Shown here piece by piece: positions 1,014-9,757 of a stretch of DNA of 42,887 nucleotides; position 1 is the first letter of the stretch, and each line of letters starts with the position of its first letter. The position numbers were made by a program, and so were the translations under genes. This DNA is from Myxococcales bacterium (GTDB lineage: Bacteria; Myxococcota_A; Polyangia; Haliangiales; Haliangiaceae): the NCBI GenBank assembly GCA_016794525.1, contig JAEUJY010000116.1:1-42887 (forward strand), written 5' to 3'. Under the pieces are notes generated by a model. The model saw only the letters and a list, made by a program, of their open reading frames with translations, was not told where the DNA came from and did no database searches.

Positions 1014-1883
1014 TCAGCGCTCGTCGCGCTGGCCGGCGACCAGGCCGGCGGCGAACGCGGCCAGCTCGCTCATCGAGCTGACGTGGAGGGCGCGCCGGAC
1101 GCCGGCGGCGTCGGCCCGTCGCTGGCCGCCGAGCACCAGCGTGCGGCCGGCGTTGGCCAGCTCGCGCGCGAACCCGCCGAGCTCCTCGGCCAGCTCCTCG
1201 GACACCGTCGAGGTCAGCGCCAGCCAGACCACCCGCGCGTCGTGGTGGGCGACCGCGTGGCGCAGGCTGGCCAGCGGCGTGGCCGGCCCCAGGTTCACGG
1301 CGCGCAGCCCGGCCGAGGTGAGCACGGTGGCGGCCAGCATCGACGGCAGCATGTACGGATCCTGCTCGGGCGCCCCGCCCACCGCGACCAGCCCCTCGGC
1401 GGGCGGCTCGATCAACCCGCGCAGCGCGACCACCGCCTGCACGCACAGGTCGGTGGCGCGGTGCTCGAGGAAGATGCCCTGCGAGTCGTGGCGCCACAGC
1501 TCGCCCAGCCGGCCCATCGCCGAGCGGACCGGGCCGTCGGCGAGCGTCGCGACGCTCTCGCCCTGCAGGTAGCCGCCCACGACCAGCGCGCGGGCGACGG
1601 CGCCGTCGCCGACGAGCAGCGCCTGGTACAGGCGCTCGTCGAGCGAGCCGCTGGCCTTGGCGTCGTTGACCGCCGGCACGCCGACCAGGCCGAGCAGGTC
1701 GGGGCGCACCACCACCGCGCCGGTGTCGCGGATGAAGCGCACGGCCTCGGCCACCGGGATCCGGCGGTGGCCGCCCTCGGTGCGGGCGACCTGCAGCCGG
1801 CCGGCGTCGGCCCAGCGCTTGAGGGACGACTCGCTGACGCCGATGGCGTCGGCCAGTTCTTTGGGTGAGAGCAGGCGCTTCAC
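1014..1883 (-). CDS. CarH/LitR-like MerR regulator with degenerate B12-binding domain
   Basis: 289 residues. The N-terminal MerR helix-turn-helix (residues 4-43: LSPKELADAIGVSESSLKRW ... GGHRRIP) is followed by a four-helix bundle and a Rossmann-like cobalamin-binding domain. CarH-type proteins bind operators in the dark as adenosylcobalamin tetramers and release them in light, controlling carotenoid genes. The Wx9EH motif that covers the adenosyl group is intact (W130, E140, H141). The lower axial His motif (E/DxHxxG) reads D175-P-Y177-M-L-P180, so the ligand His is Tyr and the Gly is Pro. The residue after W130 is Arg where Thermus CarH has its second His ligand. B12 binding or photochemistry may therefore be lost or changed. 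GTG 1883 was chosen because MerR homology begins at once; in-frame upstream sequence looks non-coding. It probably regulates the carotenoid operon and the divergent sigma gene. Confidence 0.85.
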   Translation of the reverse strand: MKRLLSPKELADAIGVSESSLKRWADAGRLQVARTEGGHRRIPVAEAVRFIRDTGAVVVRPDLLGLVGVPAVNDAKASGSLDERLYQALLVGDGAVARALVVGGYLQGESVATLADGPVRSAMGRLGELWRHDSQGIFLEHRATDLCVQAVVALRGLIEPPAEGLVAVGGAPEQDPYMLPSMLAATVLTSAGLRAVNLGPATPLASLRHAVAHHDARVVWLALTSTVSEELAEELGGFARELANAGRTLVLGGQRRADAAGVRRALHVSSMSELAAFAAGLVAGQRDER

Positions 1884-2085
1884 GGACAGGTCGCAGGCTG
1901 CGGGCCGCGCGGGGCTCCGCTGACAGATCGCACGACCGGCTGATCGCGGCGGTGGGTACCGGTCGGTTGGAAATCGTTCACAACGTTCATGTATTCCCAT
2001 TCCTGGCGCACATGCAAGGTAAAAACGTTCGAGTCGTGCACGATTTGCTCTTGCGGTGACCGATATGGATGTTATGGTGACCGTT
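1884..2085. promoter_or_regulatory. Divergent control region between MerR regulator and ECF sigma gene
   Basis: This stretch is noticeably AT-richer than its surroundings and full of short repeats. AATCGTTCA at 1972-1980 recurs inverted as TGAACGATT at 2087-2095. CGTTC cores occur at 1975, 1984 and 2026. GGTGACCG is directly repeated at 2055-2062 and 2076-2083, exactly 21 bp apart (two helical turns). The repeats overlap the proposed sigma promoter, so they are good candidates for operators of the neighbouring MerR protein. The binding protein is inferred. Confidence 0.5.
2051..2078 (+). promoter_or_regulatory. Candidate sigma-70-type promoter of the ECF sigma gene
   Basis: TTGCGG (2051-2056), a 16-bp spacer, then TATGGT (2073-2078), followed by 7 nt and ATG 2086. 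This would give an essentially leaderless transcript. It coincides with the GGTGACCG direct repeats, so a bound repressor would occlude it. Confidence 0.45.
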
Positions 2086-2727
2086 ATGAACGATTCAGAT
2101 CGACGGTTCGTGTGCGCCATCGCCCGTCGCATCGTGGGCGAGCAGGACGCGGGGGACGTGGCGCAAGAGACGTTGCTCCTCGCCCACCGCAACCGCGAGC
2201 GGTTCCGCGGCGAGGCCAGCTACCGCACGTGGCTCTACCGGATCGCCACCACGGCGGCGCTGACCCACCTCCGCACCCAGCGGCGGCGCCGGCTGGATCG
2301 CACGGTGTCGATCGACGACGCCGGCCCGCTGCCGGTGGACGACCGCCAGCGGCCGACCCCGGAAGACGAGCTGGTGCGCGCCGAGCAGGCGGCCCAGGTG
2401 CGCGCCCGGGTCGACGCGCTGCCGCCGGCGTACCGCGACGTCTTGCAGCTGCGCTTCATGCAGGAGATGAGCGAGCTCGAGGTGGCCGACGCGCTGGCGA
2501 TCTCGGTCGCCAACGTCAAGGTGCGCGCCCACCGCGCCCGCCACGCGCTGCGCGGCGCGCTCACCCCGGCGGCGCAAGCGTCTCCGGCGACCCCGGCGGC
2601 GTCGCCGGCGCCAGCACGTACAGCACGTTCTTCGGGAACAGTCGCCGCGATCGGCCCAGCTCGACGGTCCGCTCGACGGTCAGCCCCGCCTGCGCGAACC
2701 GCGCCCGCCACGCGCTCTGCCGCTTGA
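2086..2727 (+). CDS. ECF-type RNA polymerase sigma factor
   Basis: 213 residues. Region 2 is at about 3-60 (AGDVAQETLLLAHRNRERF, then YRTWLYRIATTAALTHLR), and region 4 at about 110-162 (LPPAYRDVLQLRFMQEMSELEVADALAISVANVKVRAHRAR). The final ~50 residues are Ala/Pro/Arg-rich and lie antisense to the methyltransferase 3' end, so the functional protein may effectively end near 2575. ATG 2086 was preferred over GTG 2056 and ATG 2065/2074 because of the -10 hexamer 7 nt upstream. No anti-sigma factor is adjacent. Position beside the carotenoid operon and opposite a CarH-like regulator recalls light-responsive sigma factors such as CarQ or LitS, but that role is inference. Confidence 0.85.
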   Translation: MNDSDRRFVCAIARRIVGEQDAGDVAQETLLLAHRNRERFRGEASYRTWLYRIATTAALTHLRTQRRRRLDRTVSIDDAGPLPVDDRQRPTPEDELVRAEQAAQVRARVDALPPAYRDVLQLRFMQEMSELEVADALAISVANVKVRAHRARHALRGALTPAAQASPATPAASPAPARTARSSGTVAAIGPARRSARRSAPPARTAPATRSAA

Positions 2728-3175
2728 ACGTCCCCTTCCACCCCATGAAGGTGAAGGCGAGCAGCCACAGGTGGAAGGCGATCGTCAGCCACCGCTCGCC
2801 CCAGGTCTCGACGCGATCCTCGGCCACCAGCACCCGGCCGTCGTCGGCGACCACCCGCCGCGCCTCGCGCAGCAGCGCCAGGTCGTCGGCGGCGTGGTGC
2901 AGCACGTAGAGGAACTGCACGACGTCGAAGCGCTCGTCGCCGGTGACCGGCAGCGTGGCGCCGCGCATCAGCCGCAGCTCGACGTCGGTGCGGTTCTTGT
3001 CGACGACGTCGACGCAGGTCACCCGCGCGCCGCGATCGCGCAGCGCCGCGCCGAGCTTGCAGTCCCACGAGCCGACGTCGAGCACCCGCGCGCCCGGCGG
3101 CACGTACGGCGCGACCGTGGCCACGTTCCACGCCAGGTGCTCGGCCTCGACGCGGCGGGCCCAGGCGCGGATCAC
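2561..3175 (-). CDS. SAM-dependent methyltransferase (class I) of the carotenoid operon
   Basis: 204 residues, starting at GTG 3175. Its GTGA overlaps the stop of the upstream glycosyltransferase gene, so translation is probably coupled. Motif I reads VLDVGSWDCKLG (about residues 32-43), unusual because the common GCGTG is GSWDC. Acidic motif II (VTCVDVVDK) and FDVVQFLYVLHH follow, as in Methyltransf_11-type enzymes. The C-terminal part (FHLWLLAFTFMGWKGTF) is hydrophobic and could touch the membrane. As last gene of the operon it may methylate the carotenoid, its sugar or a lipid; the substrate cannot be read from the sequence. The last 167 bases are antisense to the end of the ECF sigma gene. 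Confidence 0.82.
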   Translation of the reverse strand: MIRAWARRVEAEHLAWNVATVAPYVPPGARVLDVGSWDCKLGAALRDRGARVTCVDVVDKNRTDVELRLMRGATLPVTGDERFDVVQFLYVLHHAADDLALLREARRVVADDGRVLVAEDRVETWGERWLTIAFHLWLLAFTFMGWKGTFKRQSAWRARFAQAGLTVERTVELGRSRRLFPKNVLYVLAPATPPGSPETLAPPG

Positions 3176-4302
3176 CGCGGCCCTCCGACGACGACGCTGC
3201 GGCCGCGCCAGCGCACCGGCGCGCCGCGCAGCCGATCCCAGGCCGCGAGCCCGCTGATCGCGACGAACGCCGCGACGCCGAGCGGGAACGCCAGCGCGCC
3301 CCACCACGGCAGCGCGCCGATCCGCCGCTGCGCGATCGCGATCGCCGCGGCGGTGGCCAGGTAGGCCGCGCTCCACGCCGCCAGCATCGGCCACGCGCCG
3401 GTCGCCAGCGCCGCCAGCATCGCCAGCGGCACGCCGCCGAGCCAGCCGATGACCGCGATCAACTCGGCGACGCCGCCGGCGCCGGCCGCGGCCATGCCGT
3501 CGCGGAAGCTGCGCCGCCAGCCGCGCACGAAGCCGCCGACGCCCTCGGGGTACATGCGCACCTCGACGACGCCGGGCTCGGTGCACAGCGCGAACCGGCC
3601 GCCGGTGGCGATCACCCGGGCCGCCAGGTGCAGGTCCTCGGCGATGACGTCCTTGACCGCGACGTGGCCGCCGATGCGCTCGTACGCGGCGCGGCGGAAC
3701 AGCAGGTACTGGCCGATGCTGAAGCGGCGCGCGCCGTCGGTGGCGGCGCTGCCGGCGCGGCACGCGATCAGCAGCAGCACCTGGAACACGCCCTGCAGCC
3801 GCTCCCAGGTGCGCGCGGCGCGGTGGCGCGGGATCGCCGACACCAGATCGGCGCGGTCCGCCTCGAGGCGCGCCACCGCGTGGGCCAGCGACGCCGGCCC
3901 GTGGACGGTGTCGGCGTCGGTGAACAGCAGGAGGTCGCCGGTCGCGACCGCGGCGCCGGCGTGACAGGCCCAGGCCTTGCCCAGCCAGCCCGGGGGCAGC
4001 GGCGGCGGCACCACCACCGTCGCGCCGGCGGCGCGGGCCAGGTCGCCAGTGCCGTCGGTCGAGTGATCGTCGACGACGATCACCTGGTGGGCCGGCGGGT
4101 CGAGGACGGCCAGCGACGCCAGCAGCCGCGGCAGGTTGTGGGCCTCGTCGCGGGCCGGCACGACGATCGACACGCGCGGCGGCGCCACCGGCGGCGCGGC
4201 GGCGCGCGCGCTCAGCTGCCACAGCCGCCAGTGCCACACCACGGCGCCGAGGCTGCCGACCGCCGCCACCACCAGCCACAGCCAGGTCGCCGCGGTGATC
4301 AC
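3172..4302 (-). CDS. Family 2 glycosyltransferase of the carotenoid operon
   Basis: 376 residues. An N-terminal membrane segment (about 5-25) precedes a GT-A fold: VSIVVPARDEAHN (about 44-56), VIVVDDHSTDGTG (about 73-85), the DxD-type FTDADT (about 125-130), EDLHLA (general-base region) and the GWRRSF segment. Two or three hydrophobic helices close the protein. The layout resembles membrane GT2 enzymes such as CruC/CrtQ carotenoid glycosyltransferases and HpnB. Because it sits inside the crt operon, transfer of a sugar to a hydroxylated carotenoid is the likely job, but specificity is inferred. GTG 4302 overlaps the preceding stop as GTGA; the downstream methyltransferase start overlaps its own stop the same way. 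Confidence 0.82.
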   Translation of the reverse strand: MITAATWLWLVVAAVGSLGAVVWHWRLWQLSARAAAPPVAPPRVSIVVPARDEAHNLPRLLASLAVLDPPAHQVIVVDDHSTDGTGDLARAAGATVVVPPPLPPGWLGKAWACHAGAAVATGDLLLFTDADTVHGPASLAHAVARLEADRADLVSAIPRHRAARTWERLQGVFQVLLLIACRAGSAATDGARRFSIGQYLLFRRAAYERIGGHVAVKDVIAEDLHLAARVIATGGRFALCTEPGVVEVRMYPEGVGGFVRGWRRSFRDGMAAAGAGGVAELIAVIGWLGGVPLAMLAALATGAWPMLAAWSAAYLATAAAIAIAQRRIGALPWWGALAFPLGVAAFVAISGLAAWDRLRGAPVRWRGRSVVVGGPR

Positions 4303-4931
4303 TTCATCACCGCGAGGGTCTCGCGCACGCCCGGGTAGCCCAGCGCCCAGAACCACCACCAGCCGGCCATCATGATGCTGTGGCCGATGAAGATGCCGAC
4401 GTGGGACCACATCTCGACCGGGTCGGCGTGCTGCGACGTGTAGCGCTTCCAGTGGAAGCCCTCGTCGATCAGGCTGTAGAGCAGCGACAGGCCGGTGAAC
4501 ACCATCGCCGGGATCACCGCGGCGCGGTACGCGTAGGCCAGCACCAGCAGCACGCAGCTGGCCACGCCGCAGACGATCGTGATCTGGTGGATCAGCGCCT
4601 CGCCGCCCTTGAGCACCTCCTTGTAGATGGTGCGGTGGCCGATCGTGTCGATCGCGATCGCGACGGTGAAGATCGCCGCGCCCACCGGCACCAGCCACGC
4701 CTCGACCGGGAACCGCACCGCGTGGGCGTGGCCGAACGCGAGGAAGCCGCCGGTCGACAGCACCAGCCCGAGCATCATGCCGACCCAGGCGACGTAGACG
4801 ATCCAGTCGGTGCGGTCGAACTCGCGCACCCGGCCGACGTAGATGGCCAGCGGGCTCTTGCGCGGCGCGACGGCGGCGGGCGCCACCGTCGGCGTCGGCG
4901 GGGCCATGGTCGAGTCAGGCGACAGGGACAT
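4299..4931 (-). CDS. Unrecognised membrane protein with duplicated D-H-E-H motif in the carotenoid operon
   Basis: 210 residues with about five transmembrane segments (about 43-66, 78-98, 111-136, 138-158 and 173-196). I do not recognise the family; it lacks the usual features of CrtW, CrtZ, CruF and CarF. The core appears internally duplicated: D95-x3-H99-x11-E111-x3-H115 in the first helical hairpin and D156-x3-H160-x12-E173-x3-H177 in the second. Extra His residues are at 68, 70, 168 and 184. Acidic and His residues at matching places at the membrane interface suggest a pseudo-twofold metal site, so a carotenoid hydroxylase, ketolase or desaturase is possible. Its ATG overlaps the crtB end by 17 nt, and its stop overlaps the glycosyltransferase start, so it is a committed operon member. 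Function is inference. Confidence 0.85.
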   Translation of the reverse strand: MSLSPDSTMAPPTPTVAPAAVAPRKSPLAIYVGRVREFDRTDWIVYVAWVGMMLGLVLSTGGFLAFGHAHAVRFPVEAWLVPVGAAIFTVAIAIDTIGHRTIYKEVLKGGEALIHQITIVCGVASCVLLVLAYAYRAAVIPAMVFTGLSLLYSLIDEGFHWKRYTSQHADPVEMWSHVGIFIGHSIMMAGWWWFWALGYPGVRETLAVMK

Positions 4932-5879
4932 CGGGCAGCTCCAGCGTGCGGGTCGGCAGGCGAGGCGATCCTATCCGCAACCGGGCCAGCCCGCGGGCCG
5001 GCGCCTCGGCCAGCGCGCCGAGCGCCGCCAGCGCGACGTGGCCGAGCTTGGCCGCCTTGCCGACGACGGCGCGGCCGGCGAGCGCGTCGCCGCCGCGGCG
5101 GCGCAGCCGGGTGCCGATCGCACGGTAGATGCGGGCGGCGGCGCGGACGCCGAACCCGGCCCGCCACGGCAGCGCGCGGCAGCCGGCGACGCCGCTGGCG
5201 TAGTAGCGATCGGCGACGTCGAGCAGCTCGCGCACGGTGGCGCGCACCGCGGCGTGGGCGAACGCCGGCAGCGGGCCGCCCAGGTGCGCGGCCAGGCCGC
5301 GGACGCCGTGGCGCGCCAGGAGCTCCTCGGGCAGGTACAGCCGGCCGCGGTCCCAGTCCTCGGCGACGTCGCGGCACACGTTGGTGAGCTGCATGCCGAT
5401 GCCGAGGTGCACCGCCGGCACCAGCGCGCGGTCGTCGCGCACGCCCATGACGTGGCACATGATGAGGCCGACCACGCCGGCGACGCGGTAGCAGTACGCG
5501 AACAGGTCGTCGAACGTGCGGTAGCGGGTGTCGGCCACGTCCATGGCCATCCCGTCGAGCAGCGCCCGCGGGTAGGCCAGCGGGATCTGGCGGATGCCGA
5601 CCACCGCCGCGAACGCCCGCGGCACGCCGGGCGGCGCGGCGCCGGCGTCGATCGCGGTCAACTCGTCGTACAGGCGGGTCAGCGCGGCGGGCTGCTCGGC
5701 CGGCGGCGCGAGATCGATCGCGTCGTCGGCGCGGCGGCACCACGCGTAGACCACCGCGGCGTCGTCGCGCGCGGCCGCCGGCAGCAGCTTGGCTGCGAGC
5801 GCGAACGACTTCGAGTGCTGCGCGATCGACGCGTGGCACTCGCCCAGCTCGGCGCTGGCGGTGAGGGCCAGGGCGGTGG

Positions 5880-5883
<4 letters not shown>
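4915..5883 (-). CDS. crtB: Phytoene synthase
   Basis: Condenses two geranylgeranyl diphosphates head-to-head to phytoene. 322 residues, usual for CrtB. The first Asp-rich motif is in CRRADDAID (about 50-58). The second region reads NVCRDVAEDWDRGRLYLP (about 169-186), matching the squalene/phytoene synthase signature of Mg-diphosphate-binding Asp residues followed by RGRxYLP. The start is GTG 5883, overlapping the crtI stop as GTGA. This places it after crtI and before the unknown membrane protein. Confidence 0.95.
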
Positions 5884-7452
<1,569 letters not shown>

Positions 7453-7460
<8 letters not shown>

Positions 7461-8454
7461 AGGAAGACTCCAGGAGGTGCACGTCGGCGGTGAGGCCGAT
7501 CAGCGCGGGGTGATCGCTGTCGCCGTCGTGAGCGCGCTCGAGCGCGTCGCGCAGCGCGGCCTTGGCGCGGCCGCGGCCGAGGGTCTCGACCTCGGCGTAG
7601 AGCAGCTCGGCGACCTGCTCGAGCTCGGCGTCGTCGGTGGCGGCGCGGGCGCGGTGCTGCAGCCGCGCGTAGGCGAGCTGATCGCCCTGCTCGGCGAGCC
7701 AGGCCCACGGCCAGGTGGCGCGCCCGCCGCGCAGATCCTCGAGGCCCTTGTTGCGGCGGGCCTTCGCCAGGCCGCCGAGGTCGTCGAGCATCTGCAGGCC
7801 GGTGCCCAGCCCGGCGCCGAGCGCGCCCAGCGCGTCGACCACCGCGGGCGCCGCGCCGGCGGCCAGCGCCGGCAGCTGCGCCGCCATCGCCATCAGCGCG
7901 GCCGACTTGCCGCGGGTCACCGCGGCGACCACCGCCGGCACCCGCGCGGCCTCGAGGTCGAACACCCGCACTGACAGATCGAGCGCCTGGCCCTGGTGGC
8001 AGTCGAGCAACGTCCGCACCGCGAGCCGGTGCATCGCGCAGCCGGCGCGGGGATCGACGTCGAGCCCGGCCAGCTGCTCGAGCGCCCAGAAGTAGAGCCA
8101 GTTGCCCGTGTTGATCGCCAGCGGCACGCCGGTCACGACGTGCAGCGCCGGGCCGCCGCGGCGGGTGGCGGCGTCGTCCTGGACGTCGTCGACGATCAGC
8201 GAGCCGGCGTGGAGCGCCTCGATCGCCAGCGGGATCGCCGTCGGGATCGCGCCGCGGCCACCGGCGAGCTGCCAGGCGATCGACGCCAGCCGACCGCGCA
8301 GCTCCTTGCCGGGGCGGCGCGTGTAGTCGACCAGCGGGCCGAGCAGCGCGCGATCCCACAGGGCCGCGGGCACGTCGGCCGGCAGCGCGGTCTGATCGAG
8401 CGCCACCGCCAGGGCGGGCGTGGCGTGGCGGAGGTCGGGGACGGCAGCGGTCAC
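7453..8454 (-). CDS. crtE: Geranylgeranyl diphosphate synthase (polyprenyl synthetase family)
   Basis: Makes the C20 precursor for CrtB from IPP and allylic diphosphates. 333 residues. RRPGKELRG (about 47-55) carries the conserved Lys-Arg region. The first Asp-rich motif DDVQDD is at about 93-98. The second is degenerate, LQMLDDLGGL (about 217-226), DDxxG instead of DDxxD. A Lys/Arg-rich segment with KARRNKG follows. Chain length is not certain, but the neighbours make C20 most likely. The start is GTG 8454, overlapping the crtY stop as GTGA. Confidence 0.9.
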
Positions 8455-9632
8455 GTCAGCTCCTTGGCGAGAGGGGCGGGGGCGCCGCCGAACACCGCGC
8501 GCCACGACAGCCCGCGCGGCGGGCGGCCGACGAACAACCGGGCGCGATCGCCGCGGGTGAGCGCCAGCGCGTAGAAGCGCCGGATCGTCGGCTCGGGCAA
8601 GCGGTAGAAGTGCTCGAGCACGCCCCAGCGGTGGGGCGGCGCGAACCAGCGGAACATCATCTTGGTCAGCCGGAAGGCCAGGCCCAGCTGCGCGCGGTGC
8701 TCGGTCACCAGCGGCGCCAGCGCCGCGGCCGGCTCGCGATCGGCGGCCAGCGCGTCGGCGATGGCCTGCGCGACGCGCAGCGCGATCGGCAGGCTGTAGC
8801 CGGTGACCGGATGGAACCAGCCGCCCTGGTAGCCGCCGACGATCAGCCCCGGCGTCGGCGCGACCACGTCGCCGGTCCACGGCATCGGCAGGCAGCCGTG
8901 CTCGGTGCGGACGACCCGCCCGGTCCAGCCATGGGCGGCGGCGTACGCGGCGACCGCCTCGGCGAGCGCGGCGCGATCGAGGTCGGGGCCGTCGCTGAAG
9001 CGGGTGTCCTCGATCAGCAGGCGATCGGGCGCCAGCGGCAGCACGTAGAAGAACCGGAAGCCGTCGTCCTGCGCGACGGTGGCGTCCATCAGCATCGGCC
9101 GGTCGAGGCCGTGGGGGCGATCGAGCGCGAGCTCGTGGCCGACGAACTTCTGCCAGCCGGCGTCGGTCGCGGTGCGCTGCGGGCCCCGCGCGTCGACGAC
9201 GGTGGTGGCGGTCAGCTCGTGCCACTGGCCGTCGTGGCGATAGCCGACCCGCCCGGGCGCCACCGCGTCGACCTCGGCGCCGCGCACCAGCCGCGCGTTG
9301 GGGGCCGCCGCCAGCGCGGCGCCGACCACCGCGTCGAACCGCGCCGACGTGAGCGCCGCGTAGGGGCTGGTCAGGGTGCGGCGGCGGGTCGGGAACGCGA
9401 CGTCGTAGCCGTCCCAGCGGTGAGCCACCAGCGGCGCGAACCACGCCGCCGCGGCCGCGGGCACGTCGTCGGCGTGGAAGCACCAGGTGTGGTCGCCGCC
9501 CAGCGTCGACCCGCGCTCGAGCACGACCAGGCGCAGGTCGGGCCGGGCCGCCAGCGCGGCCAGGGCGATCAGGCCGTTCTGGAGCCCGCCGCCCACCAGG
9601 GCGAGGTCGACGGGAGCGGAAGCAGTACCCAC
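8451..9632 (-). CDS. crtY: Lycopene cyclase (CrtY type)
   Basis: Predicted to cyclise lycopene ends to beta-ionone rings. 393 residues from GTG 9632. FAD-fold start LALVGGGLQNGLIAL (about 10-24), then GGDHTWCFH (about 47-55), a hallmark of CrtY. The C-terminal signature GGWFHPVTGYSLP (about 273-285) also matches. An alternative GTG at 9671 would add 13 residues with no homology value; CCAAGG upstream of 9632 could be a weak ribosome site. It is the first gene of the operon, divergent from ftcD. The M. xanthus pathway instead uses heterodimeric CrtYc/CrtYd, so this is a different cyclase type. Confidence 0.92.
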   Translation of the reverse strand: MGTASAPVDLALVGGGLQNGLIALAALAARPDLRLVVLERGSTLGGDHTWCFHADDVPAAAAAWFAPLVAHRWDGYDVAFPTRRRTLTSPYAALTSARFDAVVGAALAAAPNARLVRGAEVDAVAPGRVGYRHDGQWHELTATTVVDARGPQRTATDAGWQKFVGHELALDRPHGLDRPMLMDATVAQDDGFRFFYVLPLAPDRLLIEDTRFSDGPDLDRAALAEAVAAYAAAHGWTGRVVRTEHGCLPMPWTGDVVAPTPGLIVGGYQGGWFHPVTGYSLPIALRVAQAIADALAADREPAAALAPLVTEHRAQLGLAFRLTKMMFRWFAPPHRWGVLEHFYRLPEPTIRRFYALALTRGDRARLFVGRPPRGLSWRAVFGGAPAPLAKELT

Positions 9633-9757
9633 TCGGCCTTGGATTCCGTACCCCCAGGCGAGGTTACGCACCGCGGCGCCGGGGTTGGCCGACCCGGCGC
9701 CAAACCCCGCCCGCCGCCCCTCGCCAGCGCCGCCGGCCTCGGTGTACCAACCTGGCC
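9633..9757. promoter_or_regulatory. Divergent promoter region crtY / ftcD
   Basis: On the plus strand TACCAA (9745-9750) ends 7 nt before the ftcD ATG at 9758, a leaderless arrangement seen repeatedly in this window. On the minus strand, GTAACC (about 9668-9663) lies before TACGGA (9650-9645), about 12 nt upstream of the crtY GTG. I cannot tell whether this is a primary-sigma or ECF promoter. No strong palindrome matching the MerR/sigma control region was seen. Confidence 0.35.

Follow-up and report, generated by a model that had tools for sequence, protein, structure and literature searches.

Carotenoid hydroxylases and the operon in the window

CrtZ is the usual beta-ring 3-hydroxylase, and CYP175A1/CYP97 are P450 carotene hydroxylases. 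To our knowledge, the beta-carotene hydroxylases fall into a few unrelated families, every one of which has a recognised oxygenase fold. In plasmid operons of Pantoea, Paracoccus and Comamonas, crtZ lies directly behind crtB. We analysed a 42,887-nucleotide stretch of DNA from a Myxococcales bacterium (the window), in which the gene directly behind crtB encodes an unnamed 210-aa membrane protein, here called X. In our view X is probably a non-homologous replacement of CrtZ: a carotenoid beta-ring hydroxylase that is integral to the membrane and belongs to an undescribed family. The genes of this part of the window are:

1014..2192, minus strand: regulator with MerR and B12-binding domains, CarH/LitR-like architecture (PF12728, PF00376, PF02607)
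2561..3220, minus strand: SAM methyltransferase, last gene of the operon (PF13489, 1.5e-11)
3172..4293, minus strand: GT2 glycosyltransferase, CruG/HpnB-like (PF00535, 1.2e-23; HpnB and CruG models below cut-off)
4299..4931, minus strand: X, candidate carotenoid beta-ring hydroxylase (open reading frame, conservation and structure; no family match)
4915..5877, minus strand: crtB, phytoene synthase (PF00494, 1.4e-66)
5880..7460, minus strand: crtI, phytoene desaturase (TIGR02734, 1.2e-192, over cut-off)
7453..8475, minus strand: crtE-like polyprenyl diphosphate synthase (PF00348, 9.9e-36)
8451..9671, minus strand: crtY, lycopene beta-cyclase (TIGR01789, 5e-95, over cut-off)

The operon thus reads crtY, crtE, crtI, crtB, X, GT2 and methyltransferase, all on the minus strand, and its CrtY makes the beta-rings that would be the substrate of X. 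The reading frame of X opens with an ATG that lies within the 3' end of crtB, and this overlap suggests that translation of the two genes may be coupled. The CarH/LitR-like regulator, whose true start is downstream of the start of its open reading frame, is divergent to an ECF sigma factor (1014-2727) and adjoins the crt operon. CarH-like genes flank X at other loci too (L023, L150, L151), and their presence beside X suggests light control.

A conserved pair of putative ligand motifs

X contains the residues D95/H99/E111/H115, spaced as D-x3-H-x11-E-x3-H, and a second set, D156/H160/E173/H177, with x12 between its pairs. The earlier note on this DNA had drawn attention to this repeated D-x3-H-x(11/12)-E-x3-H motif. 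It is real: when the protein was shuffled 200,000 times, one motif was found in 183 of the shuffles and two motifs in none. The reading in the same note depended on these residues being conserved in an alignment. All eight residues are invariant in the 49 aligned homologues from two phyla, which share 46-75% identity with the window protein, and in all 13 sequences taken from the window genome's family. They are also kept throughout a set of 71 distinct rows, in which the lowest identity to the window protein is 40%, with the sole exception of L065, a draft sequence with Ns. Five further residues, H184, D170, E157, W161 and R163, are likewise invariant across the 71 rows. We note that the seed DTIGHRT[IV]Y was used for part of the first large set of homologues, which biases that set toward D95/H99. 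The 241 Bdellovibrionota genomes were searched by profile, independently of this seed, and this search recovered variants of the stretch such as GHQTAY and GHRSAY, in which the D and the H are still kept.

We compared X with known families. Sequence and profile searches against Pfam, NCBIfam, PHROGs and PDB gave no acceptable family match. This includes the Pfam profile PF04116 (FA_hydroxylase) and the P450 model PF00067, neither of which matched, and the FA_desaturase profile PF00487, which was hit by one of 49 members at E 0.015 without any consistent match. Alignment of X to a CrtZ alignment using hhalign gave a probability of 0.1%, showing no kinship by sequence or profile. As the earlier note had held, the motif of X differs from those of the HxxHH-type hydroxylases: HxxHH boxes are present in the CrtZ alignment and in none of the 49 X homologues. 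In the openly available papers searched, we found no description of the X family.

Predicted structure

AlphaFold2, run on the 49-row alignment, returned a model with a mean pLDDT of 94.7 and a pTM of 0.84. The model has five transmembrane helices and an N-terminal surface helix, with helices at residues 40-69, 76-99, 104-134, 136-165 and 171-196. TM2 ends with D95/H99, and TM4 carries D156/H160 close to its end; E111/H115 lie close to the beginning of TM3, and TM5 begins with E173/H177. The matching placement of the ligands at helix edges, which the earlier note had read from predicted transmembrane segments, therefore reappears in the model near the ends of TM2-TM5 and on one side of the membrane. 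In such an arrangement the eight side chains may converge on a common site. The orientation of X in the membrane is predicted from its charges: basic residues in the N terminus and in loops 2-3 and 4-5 make it likely that the ligand face is on the cytoplasmic side.

The note had further described X as internally duplicated. This holds at the level of motif and topology; at the level of sequence, a profile alignment of the two halves (E = 0.32) gave no support for a true internal duplication. Searching solved structures with the model, Foldseek returned only background hits with E above 0.5. VIA placed PhoU-like folds (Z 10), TSPO (8.8) and TMEM120A (8.1) at the top, scores that are background for helical bundles, and neither method matched an oxygenase fold among solved structures.

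Distribution and genomic neighbours

X was found in 13 of 36 near relatives of the window genome, in 7 of 282 Myxococcota genomes and, by profile search, in 32 of 241 Bdellovibrionota genomes. In our species collection it occurs at 53 loci of Myxococcota and Bdellovibrionota, and its homologues belong to pigment operons in soil-dwelling and predatory bacteria. Plasmids were also searched and none carried X. The linkage of homologues to crt genes, raised in the earlier note, proved strong: X lies directly behind crtB at 46 of the 53 loci, mostly in the order crtY-E-I-B-X, and one additional locus (L037) shows the end of crtB beside X. At L211, on the single contig G426:C1 (3,782,950 bases), X is located at about 1,662,064-1,662,627 in the order crtE-crtI-crtB-X, followed by ABC and hydroxylase genes of opposite strand and then by crtY. 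ABC transporter genes adjoin X at several loci.

A GT2 gene follows X at only about 12 of the 53 loci, and X therefore belongs to the core pathway: it is a core gene of the crt operon and is not tied to glycosylation. The earlier note had suggested that X supplies the hydroxyl group used by the adjacent glycosyltransferase. Supply of a hydroxyl group remains part of the best-supported reading; service to a glycosyltransferase partner as the main purpose was demoted because most X loci have no such gene. In several X clusters that lack GT2 (L017, L018, L027, L031, L032, L036, L037, L038), a UDPGT-type glycosyltransferase gene is found nearby. Its product has only a distant likeness to CrtX (22%) and might provide a second route to a glycosylated product in these clusters.

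X is dispensable, as it is absent from the otherwise similar crtY-E-I-B-carH operon of G105, whose congeners G133 and G308 have crtY-E-I-B-X-carH. At L042 it occurs with a CarR-type cyclase instead of CrtY, so that X is neither a cyclase nor tied to CrtY. We rejected a role as lycopene cyclase, since CrtY or CarR accompanies X in nearly all cases. Another recurrent neighbour is an OlsE-like fatty acid hydroxylase (PF04116, ~270 aa, not CrtZ), found at L045, L051, L052, L053, L155-L158 and L211. The Bdellovibrionota carotenoid clusters in which it recurs include the X type as well as the CrtZ type. We rejected this gene as the real hydroxylase replacing CrtZ because it also occurs in the crtZ clusters L155-L158. 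The absence of other hydroxylases is read from draft genomes, and another unrecognised oxygenase, for example this OlsE-like gene near some clusters, may act as the hydroxylase.

Exchange of X and CrtZ

We compared the positions of X and CrtZ across genomes. The Bdellovibrionota operon of G485 is crtE-crtI-crtB-crtZ. Myxococcota operons with crtZ have crtY-E-I-B, then CrtD or CrtC, and then crtZ; CrtC holds a nearby slot in G050. The CrtZ profile matched none of 50 X-bearing genomes, whereas the same query matched 24 of 282 Myxococcota and 20 of 241 Bdellovibrionota genomes. X and CrtZ were found together in none of the 282 Myxococcota and in one of the 241 Bdellovibrionota (G486). The full crtY-E-I-B-X operon of this genome is on one contig, and its crtW-crtZ pair is on a second, close to a rhodopsin gene (L161, L162). 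As G486 carries both, X and CrtZ are not strictly interchangeable. Of the 27 Myxococcota whose CrtY is clear, X is present in 7 and CrtZ in 9; no genome has both and 11 have neither, a distribution for which the two-sided Fisher test gives p = 0.06, not corrected for descent.

On well-supported branches of the CrtI tree, the CrtZ label changes at least 4 times and the X label at least 5 times. The crtZ locus L143 is sister to the X locus L047 (support 99/97), and four Myxococcota crtZ clusters are nested among X clusters. Several times X has taken over the operon position of CrtZ, and such repeated exchange at a single place is what would be expected of two enzymes that share a role.

Link to xanthorhodopsin-like proteins

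The draft genome G418 carries crtY-E-I-B-X and encodes a rhodopsin that is the light-driven pump Kin4B8 (100% identity over 197 aa). We detected no CrtZ, CrtR, CrtW or P450 in this draft genome. Kin4B8 binds 3-hydroxylated carotenoids and nostoxanthin well, does not bind beta-carotene or 4-hydroxy forms, and is poorly served by keto carotenoids as antennae; which carotenoid it carries in vivo is, by the same source, not known (PMC12308411). As Kin4B8 needs hydroxylated carotenoids and no other recognised hydroxylase was detected, X is the best candidate for making this carotenoid in G418.

Rhodopsins in the 241 Bdellovibrionota genomes are of two kinds, xanthorhodopsin-like and proteorhodopsin-type. 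X or CrtZ is present in 12 of the 13 genomes with the former (6 with X, 5 with CrtZ, 1 with both; G562 has neither) and in none of the 7 with the latter (Fisher p 1e-4, with descent not removed). In the X genomes G384 and G391, the Kin4B8 relatives carry Ala at the position of Gly153 and may lack an antenna. G453 has CrtW with X and no CrtZ, whereas the other CrtW genomes pair CrtW with CrtZ. Genes for beta-carotene 15,15'-dioxygenase (BCD) adjoin the xanthorhodopsin-like genes in X-bearing Bdellovibrionota (L206, L208, L209), and crtW of G453 lies in the same neighbourhood as BCD and xanthorhodopsin-like genes.

Proposed function and alternatives

The earlier note had proposed a new carotenoid-modifying metalloenzyme that supplies a hydroxyl group. 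Comparative grounds favour this: X is a core crt gene, it is exchanged with CrtZ and it is the sole hydroxylase candidate found in the Kin4B8-type genomes, with the metal site predicted from the conserved residues. Most likely, X converts beta-carotene to beta-cryptoxanthin and zeaxanthin by 3-hydroxylation. Its position in the pathway is well supported, and the assignment of the reaction to C3, deduced from comparison, is moderately supported. In the mechanism that we envisage, TM2-TM5 would fold into two hairpins, gathering D95/H99, E111/H115, D156/H160 and E173/H177 at the cytoplasmic edge of the membrane. This site would bind two iron ions through four His and four carboxylates, and X is probably a dinuclear iron enzyme. 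It would activate O2 with electrons from a general reductant, a metal and oxygen chemistry that we infer from the residues, and would insert oxygen into the C3-H bond of the ring of a carotene arriving through the bilayer.

A ring oxygenase of other regiochemistry or product (4-ketolase, 2-hydroxylase, or desaturase/epoxidase) is unlikely, although every known family of such oxygenases likewise consists of membrane diiron or heme enzymes from the same operons and the occurrence of X beside crtW-crtZ in G486 is what would be expected if X were not a 3-hydroxylase. Against it, X and CrtZ trade one and the same operon slot, G453 already has a CrtW ketolase with X and no CrtZ, and Kin4B8 refuses 4-hydroxy forms and makes poor use of keto forms (PMC12308411). 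We give low credence to a hydratase or psi-end enzyme, an analogue of CrtC or CruF that gives a tertiary hydroxyl group to a CruG-like glycosyltransferase. The resemblance of the window GT2 to CruG/HpnB and the CrtC in the nearby slot of G050 speak for such an enzyme, but most X loci have no glycosyltransferase, X accompanies beta-cyclases, CrtD (the usual partner of the hydratase) was not seen beside X in the neighbourhoods inspected, and a site with eight ligands fits redox metal chemistry better.

X could also be no enzyme at all; it might bind carotenoids, serve in transport or as a chaperone, or sense a metal for the crt system, in keeping with the adjoining ABC transporter genes and with the weak similarity to the TSPO fold (Z 8.8, at the background for helical bundles). 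We regard this as quite improbable, as eight invariant, paired acid and His residues are typical of catalytic metal sites and as X is exchanged with an enzyme. Finally, predators with Kin4B8-type rhodopsins might take xanthophylls from prey or water, which would make the rhodopsin link uninformative on X. Bdellovibrio are predators and, according to PMC12308411, the carotenoid that Kin4B8 binds in vivo is not known; we nevertheless give uptake almost no weight, since the Kin4B8-type predators all have a complete crtY-E-I-B-X set, and a BCD gene where checked, and since the evidence from operon position and the CrtZ exchange is independent of rhodopsins.

On the preferred reading of X as a beta-ring 3-hydroxylase, the protein would name the missing step in the carotenoid pathways of Bdellovibrio and myxobacteria. 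The carotenoid of the Kin4B8 host would become directly testable, because G418 has no other recognised hydroxylase. A carboxylate-rich intramembrane hydroxylase site, if true, would bring new chemistry to a protein of ~200 residues. More tentatively, and with slightly less than even confidence, we propose that X represents a new superfamily of intramembrane oxygenases that have a diiron site of four His and four carboxylates and no kinship with the histidine-box membrane oxygenases. Beta-ring hydroxylation would then have arisen in X separately from CrtZ, CrtR and the P450s, and X would supply the antenna carotenoid of Kin4B8-type rhodopsins.

Comparison with known systems

The function proposed for X is of a known kind, and its protein family and site appear to be new. 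X resembles CrtZ (PF04116) in its place behind crtB in crtY-E-I-B operons, in being a small polytopic membrane protein, in its conserved His residues and in its expected substrate. It differs in its D-x3-H/E-x3-H pairs, with carboxylates making up half of the ligands, and in falling outside PF04116. The CrtR-type hydroxylases and CrtW ketolases (PF00487) are, as proposed for X, membrane oxygenases of the carotenoid ring but have a different motif. With the P450s CYP175A1/CYP97 X shares the proposed reaction, although X has five transmembrane helices and is of non-heme type. Soluble four-helix-bundle diiron carboxylate enzymes and alternative oxidase have two helix pairs with carboxylate and His ligands in a pseudo-twofold arrangement. 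X has comparable pseudo-twofold helix pairs, a likeness that we take as analogy only: X is membrane-embedded and its pairs are spaced i,i+4 (D/E-x3-H), whereas the four-helix-bundle diiron enzymes have E-x2-H.
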